A program made the translations under genes and the position numbers. DNA of 22,047 nt from positions 1 through 22,047 of the IMG/VR virus record IMGVR_UViG_3300036832_000229. One strand, 5' to 3'. Position 1 is the stretch's first letter; each line of letters opens with the position of its first letter. This DNA comes from a virus. Positions 2,976 through 9,341 of the stretch are shown piece by piece. Below the pieces are notes generated by a model. That model ran no database searches. It was not told where the DNA came from and was given only the letters and a program-made list of their open reading frames with translations.

Positions 2976-3482
2976 CTACCGGGACAGCTGGCGAAGGCCA
3001 AACTCACGACGCTTGCCCACCCGGATTCTTCCACCACTGGCCAAAGCCCCTCTTGGTGGAGTGCTTCCACCAACACGGGCTGGAACCGTCCCCACGCTGG
3101 CACCCTTGCTCTTTTCTTCTTTACGATGCTCCAGGCGTGGCTTATCAGGCATCCCTGCCCTTTTCCTTCGCCCCGCTGCAGTTAGGGTGACCATTGGGTT
3201 ACGCAACTCGAAACGAAATGGCTTCACTGTCCGCCCTTGGTCAAAATCCAAAAGTGCCAGCTGTGCAGGGCGAGGCGTCAAGTAGGTGTAACGGAGACCC
3301 TTGCTAGGGTCCGTCCATCGGATCGTAGCCAAATCAACTGACACGCTCTTGGCACCAGGTACAGCAGCATAGACAGCATCAGCAATCATGCAGTGTCCAG
3401 AGTGCTTAGGCGTAGCTGCGGCAATGATCAACTCCATCACATCAATCATGGGCCGTGGTGTCCGTTGGTTGTTTGAAGTCAT
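2976..3482 (-). CDS. Conserved actinophage protein of unknown function
   Basis: A 168-residue protein. The first half is compact and looks folded, with HSGHCMIADAVYAAVPGA, then IRWTD and RYTYLTPRPAQLALLDFDQG. The second half is basic, Pro/Gly-rich and probably disordered. The arrangement (a short domain noting cytosine/histidine-bearing helices, then a line such as LLDFDQGRTVKPFRFEL) resembles small early proteins of actinobacteriophages that I recall as unnamed. I choose ATG at 3482 over a TTG one codon earlier because GGAAAGG lies just upstream. It sits between the SSB-like gene and the primase-helicase, with a TAG-GTG junction to the latter, so a replication accessory role is plausible. 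There is no motif to define a function. Confidence 0.7.
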   Translation of the reverse strand: MTSNNQRTPRPMIDVMELIIAAATPKHSGHCMIADAVYAAVPGAKSVSVDLATIRWTDPSKGLRYTYLTPRPAQLALLDFDQGRTVKPFRFELRNPMVTLTAAGRRKRAGMPDKPRLEHRKEEKSKGASVGTVPARVGGSTPPRGALASGGRIRVGKRREFGLRQLSR

Positions 3483-3498
3483 CAACCCTTTCCTTTCT

Positions 3499-3939
3499 TT
3501 AGCTGGCGAACAGGTCGTAATCGTCAGCTGGCGGGCTCTGAGGCCTCATCGGTGTGGGCTGCTCAGGCCGGGGCTGGTTGGTGCCTGGATGCTCATAGCC
3601 TCCAGCAGCGGTATGCCTCACGTCCACCTGCCAGATTTTGGCTGTGCCCTGAGCCACGTTGCGGATTTCCTGCAACGTGACGCTCACCAGGTCACCGATG
3701 GCAGGCCTGGCGTTCTTCATCTGGCCCACCAGGTTCTTTGAGCCCAGCATGACCACCATGGGCCTACGACGGTCAACGTCGTCAATGGTCAACTTGCCCC
3801 GTTCCCCGTAGCGGGTGTTGACCGTTTCCATTTTGAGCAGCGTGCCCCGGCAACGGTCGCCCACCTGCTCAAAGCTCACGCTGTTGTCCTGAAAGTCGCC
3901 ATCATCGTCAAAGGCTGGGTTGTCCCAAAAATCACCCAT
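3499..3939 (-). CDS. SSB-like OB-fold protein
   Basis: A 146-residue protein whose central region (about 20-110) alternates beta strands in a way that suggests an OB fold: FEQVGDRCRGTLLKMET, GKLTIDDV, MVVMLGSKNL, IGDLVSVTLQEIRNV, AKIWQVDV. A Pro/Gln-rich linker leads to the acidic-hydrophobic end DDYDLFAS, similar to the SSB C-terminal tip that recruits partner proteins. It should bind single-stranded DNA during phage replication and recombination. The ATG at 3939 is preceded by AAAGGA nine bases upstream, and its start overlaps the end of the Cas4/RecB-like nuclease gene by 8 bp. The tip differs from canonical DDDIPF by ending in two extra residues. The assignment rests on architecture and neighbours rather than a strong signature. 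Confidence 0.65.
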   Translation of the reverse strand: MGDFWDNPAFDDDGDFQDNSVSFEQVGDRCRGTLLKMETVNTRYGERGKLTIDDVDRRRPMVVMLGSKNLVGQMKNARPAIGDLVSVTLQEIRNVAQGTAKIWQVDVRHTAAGGYEHPGTNQPRPEQPTPMRPQSPPADDYDLFAS

Positions 3940-7968: not shown

Positions 7969-8326
7969 ATTGTCTCAGGGCTCAGGCAGCCGCCCGAGGG
8001 CTCAGACCCGTTTTGACTCCTTTTTGACTCCTGACATCAGGGCATCCAGGGGTATCCAGGGGCACCTCAGGACATCGGGGCTGCTTGCCAAATGCAGCAA
8101 AAGCCCTGGTCAGGGGCACATTTGGGCAGGTCAGGTGCTTGACAAAAAATAGGGCTTCCAAAACAACAGCTTCTGAAAGCATGTGACGAAAAACCTTCCC
8201 TGACCAGCCCGTTTACCGGGCCACGGTGCCGTCAGAGCCCGTTTTGACTCCCTTTTGACTCCCTGACTCTCGGGAGGGCTGTCTCTGCCCGGACGACAAC
8301 CTGAACCCGGCAGCCCTCCCGAGACT
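7969..8326. other. Gene-free attP candidate region
   Basis: There is no supported gene in this stretch. It contains two copies of a 37-bp near-identical block (8001-8034 and 8231-8267). Each block carries two tandem 11-bp units that read GGAGTCAAAAN on the minus strand, at 8010-8020 and 8021-8031, and at 8241-8251 and 8252-8262. The pairs are 231 bp apart. Inside lie ATCCAGGGG twice in tandem (8044-8062), a CCCTG-GT-CAGGG palindrome (8104-8115) and GCTTCTGAAAGC (8169-8180). Paired arm repeats flanking a core next to integrase are the normal plan of attP for tyrosine integrases. I cannot identify the crossover core. A weak minus-strand promoter-like TTGTCA occurs near 8140. Confidence 0.5.
8268..8324 (-). 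terminator. Late-operon terminator hairpin
   Basis: A perfect 14-bp stem (8268-8281 with 8311-8324) closes a 29-base loop that can itself pair through CCGG elements. It starts 2 bases beyond the stop codon of the holin-like gene, the last gene of the late operon. No clean T run follows on the minus strand. Position and stem strength support a terminator of the actinobacterial kind. Its far side touches the second repeat pair of the attP candidate. Confidence 0.65.
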
Positions 8327-8503
8327 TCAGCTGCCGTTGCTGGGCAGCGAGGTGATGACGATGGCCACACCGCCAGCCAGGCCAATGACCGCCAGCAGGT
8401 CAGTGTCCACGCTGCGATGGCGGGCAAGGATGATGATGGACAGGACCAGGACGATCACACCCAACAGGATTAGGTACACCTCTTTGCGCAGCTTCCAGGG
8501 CAT
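8327..8503 (-). CDS. Holin-like protein with two membrane segments
   Basis: A 58-residue protein read directly from the minus strand. It has a basic amphipathic start (MPWKLRKEVY), a first hydrophobic segment at about 11-27 (LILLGVIVLVLSIIILA), a short polar loop (RHRSVDTD) and a second hydrophobic segment at about 36-54 (LLAVIGLAGGVAIVITSL). Two membrane spans, small size and position directly after the endolysin fit a class II holin that would open the membrane for lysis. The ATG overlaps the TAA of the 30-residue gene as TAATG, with AGGG five bases upstream. A terminator hairpin follows 2 bases after the stop. Very short even for a holin; an accessory membrane protein is the alternative. 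Confidence 0.75.
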   Translation of the reverse strand: MPWKLRKEVYLILLGVIVLVLSIIILARHRSVDTDLLAVIGLAGGVAIVITSLPSNGS

Positions 8504-8595
8504 TACACCCTGCGGCTGAGCAGGAAGGTCAGCAGCGTGATGAGGGCCAGCACGCCAACCTCAGCGATAATCCACCAGGCTTGGGTCTCGGTCAC
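8503..8595 (-). CDS. 30-residue single-span membrane protein of the lysis cassette
   Basis: GTG at 8595 overlaps the endolysin stop as GTGA, and GAGGTG lies five or so bases upstream within the endolysin gene. The product has a polar start (MTETQAWW), one hydrophobic segment (IIAEVGVLALITLLTFLL) and a basic end (SRRV). The single span with positive residues at the C-terminal end suggests an N-out, C-in insertion. It ends TAA-TG into the holin-like gene. Being wedged between endolysin and holin with overlapping codons on both sides argues that it is translated. It may be a holin partner, antiholin or pinholin-like peptide; the sequence does not distinguish these. Confidence 0.62.
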   Translation of the reverse strand: MTETQAWWIIAEVGVLALITLLTFLLSRRV

Positions 8596-8822
8596 TGGGC
8601 ACCTCGGTCAATGTTCTCCAGGTCGACCTGGACAGAGTCGGGCTCGACCACGGGCAGAATCTCAGGCATGCGGTCGATGGTGTAGTCAGCGAGCTCCACA
8701 GGGTCTGTCTGCCCGCAGATTTTGAGCAGGTCAGGTGCCTCCATGGTGGGCTCACCGATATAGCGCTTGGTTACGCCATCGGTGATGTACTGGCGACCGT
8801 CTGGCCGCTTGATCACTTTCAT
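8592..8822 (-). CDS. Possible internal-start product: free C-terminal domain of the endolysin
   Basis: Met174 of the endolysin (ATG at 8822) is preceded by a perfect AGGAGG (8831-8836 on the plus strand as CCTCCT) with an 8-base spacer, better than the site of most genes in this window. Starting there gives a 76-residue protein that consists of the C-terminal domain alone (MKVIKRPDGRQY onwards). It falls exactly at the linker-domain border. Several endolysins, for example Lys170 and CTP1L, are known to make an extra wall-binding subunit from an internal start and to assemble with it. The underlying codons (Q-E-D-V-T) could produce the motif by chance, so this is a prediction. Confidence 0.45.
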   Translation of the reverse strand: MKVIKRPDGRQYITDGVTKRYIGEPTMEAPDLLKICGQTDPVELADYTIDRMPEILPVVEPDSVQVDLENIDRGAQ

Positions 8823-9341
8823 GGTCACATCCTCCTGTGTCGGTGCGGGTGGGGCTGTCCCACCGGTGGCCATGGCCAGAATGTCGTCACGTCGGCTCAG
8901 CCGGACATCACAGGGGCAAGCGGTGGACACCGCCATACGGTGAAAGCCGAACCCTGGCTGTCCGTTAGCATCGGCACAGACAGCAGGCCAGCCGTGACGG
9001 GCCATGCCCTCGGCAAAAATGGCAGCCAGGCCGGCCACCATGGCCTCAGACATCGGATCAGCGTGCGGTGGATTGGAACAGCCCTCTGTCTCCACGCCTA
9101 CATAGCGGCTGTTCAGGTCCATGCCATGCCAGGCCACCACATCAGTGTCCACGTACTGCTCCACCAGCCCTGACTGAGCAACCCAAAAATGTGCGGAGAC
9201 CTGCGCTGAGGGGCTGTTGAAAAACGACCACAGCGACCCGTCAGCCACCGCATGGTGCAGCACCAGTCCAAGGTTAGGTGACAGCCGCCCACCAGTGTTG
9301 GTGGCGATGGGGCGATGGGTGGCGCAGCTGAACCAGGCCAT
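8592..9341 (-). CDS. Endolysin: N-acetylmuramoyl-L-alanine amidase
   Basis: A 249-residue lysin. Residues 20-155 form an Amidase_2/PGRP-type zinc amidase: LVLHHAV (His29 or His30), AWHGMDLN (His72), VGVETEG, GFGFHRM (His134) and ACPCDVR (Cys142 or Cys144) are the expected zinc and catalytic elements. It would cut the bond between muramic acid and the stem peptide at lysis. A Pro-rich linker (GTAPPAPTQE, 161-170) leads to a separate C-terminal domain (174-249; VIKRPDGRQYITDGVTKRYI), probably for wall binding or assembly. ATG at 9341 has AAAAGGAG just upstream. It has no signal peptide, so it needs the downstream holin-like proteins. A very good internal start site occurs at the domain border (next entry). 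Confidence 0.93.
   Translation of the reverse strand: MAWFSCATHRPIATNTGGRLSPNLGLVLHHAVADGSLWSFFNSPSAQVSAHFWVAQSGLVEQYVDTDVVAWHGMDLNSRYVGVETEGCSNPPHADPMSEAMVAGLAAIFAEGMARHGWPAVCADANGQPGFGFHRMAVSTACPCDVRLSRRDDILAMATGGTAPPAPTQEDVTMKVIKRPDGRQYITDGVTKRYIGEPTMEAPDLLKICGQTDPVELADYTIDRMPEILPVVEPDSVQVDLENIDRGAQ

Follow-up and report, generated by a model that had tools for sequence, protein, structure and literature searches.

Does the endolysin gene of this virus carry a second, in-frame translation start that supplies free copies of its C-terminal domain? The window is the entire stretch analysed, a 22-kb virus record from IMG/VR (22,047 nucleotides), and its terminase is approximately 40% identical to those of phages of Gordonia, Rhodococcus, and other actinobacteria. 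The gene in question is an open reading frame (ORF) of 249 codons (8592..9341, minus strand) coding for an N-acetylmuramoyl-L-alanine amidase, which matches the Pfam family Amidase_2 (PF01510) with an E value of 9.8e-17 and a score of 61.9 bits (curated cut-off 26), and is classed as an endolysin by PHROG. The protein has a two-domain layout. Residues 25-143 form the Amidase_2 catalytic domain (8913..9269, minus strand), to which the relatives are 56-85% identical. It is followed by the Pro-rich linker GGTAPPAPTQEDVT (residues 160-173; 8823..8864, minus strand), as delimited by translation and comparison with relatives, and then by a shared C-terminal module (residues 174-249). When searched alone, the 76-residue C-terminal domain has no match in Pfam or PHROG and no significant sequence match in the PDB.

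The signal that raises the question is encoded by the final codons of the linker. A sequence-only reading of this DNA had noted a perfect AGGAGG 8 nucleotides ahead of an in-frame ATG (residue 174) at the border of linker and C-terminal domain, and both the coordinates and the description are correct. The minus strand at the junction reads CACAGGAGGATGTGACC ATG AAA GTG ATC, where the AGGAGG (8831..8836, minus strand) lies within the codons CAG GAG GAT GTG ACC ATG, and the ATG of Met174 (8820..8822, minus strand) follows after the 8-nucleotide spacer. Thus, a Shine-Dalgarno (SD) sequence and an in-frame start codon are located between the two domains, as in endolysins that produce a free C-terminal domain, and the predicted second product would be the 76-residue domain alone (8592..8822, minus strand).

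The duplex energy at Met174 is −10.3 kcal/mol, as calculated with a simple duplex model that assumes the standard anti-SD sequence (CACCUCCUUU), from which the 3′ end of the host's 16S rRNA may differ. Across 14 of the window's genes, no other of the 384 in-frame internal ATG, GTG, or TTG codons has a better value, and the site is also the best of the 89 that are ATG. The earlier remark that the match is better than those of most real starts is borne out, in that the site surpasses all but one of approximately 24 presumed gene starts, including the lysin's own start (−8.4 kcal/mol). In addition, AGGAGG is depleted on both strands of the window, with 4 occurrences compared to 12.5 expected from dinucleotide shuffles. 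However, when the codons of the linker region are shuffled synonymously, an equal or better best site is obtained in 48% of cases, and a single site in the window is therefore not proof. The case for the predicted internal start comes from its relatives, and the window gene alone leaves the question open.

A first genome scan with the lysin recovered no relative, and a second one, with a profile, returned only matches of 33-40% identity, mostly in actinobacterial genomes, which were left out of the comparative analysis. Relatives of the C-terminal domain are present in two virus contigs, L006 and L007, where the domain is 74-78% identical to that of the window but is joined to different amidase domains. 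L007 has the amidase domain of a second family of lysins (A3), and the amidase domain of L006 is distinct from both others, its match to Amidase_2 scoring under the curated cut-off. The junction in L007 reads GAGGAGGAACCGACC-ATG (−11.6 kcal/mol) and retains the AGGAGG, whereas that in L006 reads GAGGAGCAACCCACC-ATG (−7.9 kcal/mol) and carries GAGGAG, and in both genes the junction site is the best internal start. As judged from these three genes, the catalytic half has been exchanged while the predicted start signal has stayed with the C-terminal half. The sequence-only reading had proposed asking whether homologues keep the SD and start codon beyond codon need, and both homologues of the C-terminal domain do keep them.

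A wider set of proteins was also compared. When viral contigs were scanned with profiles of the two amidase families, 114 lysins with distinct C-terminal parts were obtained, and grouping these parts at 40% identity gave 28 clusters. One of these clusters (27 lysins, class assigned by HMM) has a C-terminus resembling PG_binding_1, with a Pfam match for L164, and is found on both amidase families; the remaining 87 lysins have diverse C-termini. A junction start with an SD of −5 kcal/mol or better is present in 83 of these 87 lysins versus 4 of the 27 PG_binding_1 lysins (Fisher test, 4e-16), and the counts at −9 kcal/mol or better are 50/87 and 0/27 (1e-8), where the PG_binding_1 side of the contrast represents essentially one homologous class of C-terminal domain, though on both amidase families. 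Among all in-frame starts, the junction site ranks first in 66 of the 87 non-PG_binding_1 genes (12.9 expected). Where sites were compared with the genes' own starts, several of the locus starts used are match starts. As a rule, then, the conservation anticipated by the sequence-only reading extends to lysins with C-termini other than PG_binding_1, and the internal start seems to go with the type of C-terminal domain. Two distant relatives in Streptomyces phages carry other C-termini; that of Tubberson is without a strong site and that of Percastrophe has a linker GTG at −8.3 kcal/mol.

The explanation that survives best beside a functional start is a coincidence of coding, in which the acidic or basic linkers of a G+C-rich genome are by chance written in purine-rich codons and the methionine is retained for structural or historical reasons. 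This possibility draws on the synonymous codings of the window that are as good as the real one, and on the synonymously shuffled mean of the 87 non-PG_binding_1 lysins, which is still −6.25 kcal/mol. The junction energies are best-of-region values, and for this reason the shuffles, in which the junction region was recoded with the codon usage of each locus, also took the best site each time. The observed mean of the 87 lysins is nevertheless lower, at −9.06 kcal/mol (Wilcoxon test, 9e-13), whereas the PG_binding_1 lysins, which have the same amidase domains but lack the signal, exhibit no difference (−1.84 observed versus −2.02 shuffled). The lysins of the survey are related to one another, and when each of the 27 non-PG_binding_1 C-terminal clusters (below 40% identity to one another) contributes one value, which removes kinship only partly, the means are −9.32 observed and −5.73 shuffled (P = 7e-8). 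The junction site is present in 25 of these 27 clusters.

Two further features are difficult to reconcile with coincidence. The residues ahead of the start vary widely (EEQPT, RKGRN, TGGGA, EEVFT, LEDEN, SEDKE, RRSCN), and since linkers of quite different composition keep the signal, the common factor is at the nucleotide level. Moreover, start codons replace one another at the same place: the best sites comprise 70 ATG, 13 GTG, and 4 TTG codons, and the near relatives L024 and L025 differ by Met versus Val through an ATG/GTG exchange that preserves a start codon. Thus, the signal is conserved in relatives beyond coding need. The excess over shuffled codings, the varied linkers, and the start-codon exchanges fit selection on putative translation initiation rather than on protein sequence, and we consider coincidence improbable.

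It is also conceivable that the site is a fossil of gene fusion, such that the C-terminal domain was once encoded by a separate gene whose surviving start travels with the cassette during module exchange. The presence of one C-terminal domain on three amidase domains, with similarity that begins approximately at the SD, would be expected from such a history, as would the sharing of downstream membrane ORFs. However, no free-standing gene for the C-terminal domain was seen, the lysins of L079 and L080 being followed by unrelated ORFs, and an unused relic would decay, whereas the signal persists across many diverged linkers. A fusion origin is compatible with a present function, but a fossil without function is very unlikely.

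Internal sequences that resemble an SD have been proposed to make ribosomes pause, and the location of this SD at a domain border would suit a model in which slowed elongation allows the catalytic domain to fold without any initiation. However, pausing requires no start codon, yet of the 55 genes whose linker contains a strong SD (−9 kcal/mol or better), 45 have one at a usable distance, and the SD is absent where the same catalytic domains carry PG_binding_1 C-termini, which leaves pausing with a very low probability.

We therefore prefer the reading in which the lysin gene contains, within its reading frame, a functional second start that supplies free C-terminal subunits, and the comparisons among genes make this highly probable. 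Ribosomes starting at the first codon would produce the full amidase, and those starting at Met174 would produce only the 76-residue domain. The free domains would most likely join the corresponding domain of the complete amidase to form a complex with one catalytic domain and several putative cell-wall binding domains, like those of Lys170, CTP1L, and LysP7951.

Systems of this type are known from other phages. One survey predicts internal starts for roughly half of all endolysins encoded by phages of Gram-positive hosts (PMC9430671). Published cases with the layout of the window gene, namely Lys170, CTP1L, CD27L, CS74L, and LysP7951, form complexes of 1:3, 2:2, or 1:5, with activity that depends on the short subunit in several cases (PMC9430671, PMC4777826). 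The cases of a free C-terminal domain confirmed in that survey are from Firmicutes phages, namely enterococcal, clostridial, lactococcal, and streptococcal (PMC9430671). The window gene resembles Lys170, LysIME-EF1, CTP1L, CS74L, CD27L, and LysP7951 in having one catalytic domain, a linker, and a small C-terminal domain, with an SD and an ATG or GTG in the linker and a predicted product that is the C-terminal domain alone. It differs from this group in that its phage is of actinobacterial type and its C-terminal domain is unrelated, unnamed, and known here from sequence alone.

The sequence-only reading had been unaware of such a start being described for an actinophage amidase with this C-terminal domain. 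In-frame internal starts in actinophage amidase genes are already known from Ms6 lysA (Lysin384/Lysin241), where the signal TGGAGGT is followed after 6 nucleotides by GTG and is tabulated for many mycobacteriophages (PMC3111421), and from the Pollywog lysin (PMC9430671). However, the short products of Ms6 and Pollywog retain a catalytic domain, whereas the start in the window follows the amidase domain. We considered a lysA of the Ms6 type with an enzymatic short product and rejected it, since the start at residue 174 lies past that domain.

Candidate internal starts are likewise found in cultured phages. In Cutibacterium acnes phages (L167 and L172-L176), GGAG followed by GTG or ATG is located at the junction of linker and C-terminus in all six examined. 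Their linkers vary in length and sequence, and an exchange of ELTV to ELSM keeps the start codon. The C-terminus after the linker is heptad-like in these endolysins. Gordonia phage Chickadee (L169) and Corynebacterium phage SamW (L168) have candidate starts at residues 170 and 148, respectively, which are located between the N-terminal and amidase domains in a layout like that of Ms6. Among the lysins related to that of the window, those of L079 and L080 stop directly after the catalytic domain (positions 3480-3520), and the next ORF in each codes for a short acidic protein and overlaps the lysin stop codon. A separate gene for a C-terminal domain was sought beside these two lysins, but the ORFs that follow are unrelated.

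Why the start should accompany some C-terminal domains may lie in their folds. An AlphaFold2 model of the window's domain built from 3 sequences is poor (mean pLDDT 58), and for this reason we claim no fold for it. By eye it looks similar to the small C-termini of L075, L129, and L132, but profile comparison assigns this relationship a probability of 2% and we rejected it. The commonest C-terminal group, which is of a GYW...FGD type not shared by the window's domain, accounts for 54 of the 114 lysins and gives a confident AlphaFold2 model from 36 sequences (pLDDT 90) with two three-stranded units. The best Foldseek matches to this model are almost all beta-propellers, although weak (E values of 0.05 and above), and include 6r5x, an 8-bladed propeller made of four two-blade fragments. 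The model and these matches suggest that the GYW...FGD domain is a two-blade propeller fragment that would need further copies, since two predicted blades are too few for a closed ring. The C-terminus of one related lysin resembles PLL lectins (E value of 5e-4), and another has a weak match to DUF346 repeats.

A two-blade domain could not close a ring alone, and it is easy to see what purpose additional free copies would serve. It is thus possible, if somewhat doubtful, that in a large group of lysins from phages of actinobacterial type the internal start accompanies C-terminal domains which, like two blades of a propeller, are not complete on their own, such that free subunits close the binding domain and contribute more than mere avidity, while self-sufficient PG_binding_1 lysins do without the start. 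A rule that links internal starts to domain type seems new, as no description was found in the literature searched. The tables of PMC9430671 may nevertheless already predict an internal start in a comparable lysin of an actinophage. The rule is testable, since the type of C-terminal domain would predict the presence of an internal start. The predicted layout with free C-terminal subunits would also extend to uncultivated phages of actinobacterial type, where the confirmed actinophage cases have the other layout. If such lysins are expressed from codon-optimised genes, the second subunit would probably be lost, which was the case for CTP1L (PMC4777826).

Downstream of the lysin gene are two tiny ORFs on the same strand. 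The first (8503..8595, minus strand) codes for 30 amino acids with one hydrophobic, membrane-like segment and is a holin-like candidate. Its GTG start overlaps the lysin stop (GTGA), and it is conserved downstream of the lysins in L006, L007, L012, and L013. The second (8327..8503, minus strand) codes for 58 amino acids with hydrophobic segments and is also a holin candidate, with counterparts in L012 and L013; its ATG overlaps the stop codon of the 30-residue ORF (TAATG). Across these four contigs, exchange of the lysin halves has left the tiny ORFs (8327-8595 in the window) conserved. Judged by their sequences, the two ORFs are probably a holin pair.

The region that separates the integrase gene from the lysis genes contains two copies of a 25-nucleotide direct repeat, CCCGTTTTGACTCC(T/C)TTTTGACTCC (8007-8031 and 8238-8262), which are 96% identical and 231 nucleotides apart, with a 17-nucleotide inverted repeat between them. 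These copies are possibly arm sites of an attachment site or regulatory sites. Just past the last lysis ORF, a perfect 14-nucleotide inverted repeat, TCTCGGGAGGGCTG, with a 29-nucleotide spacer (8268-8324) is a possible terminator.
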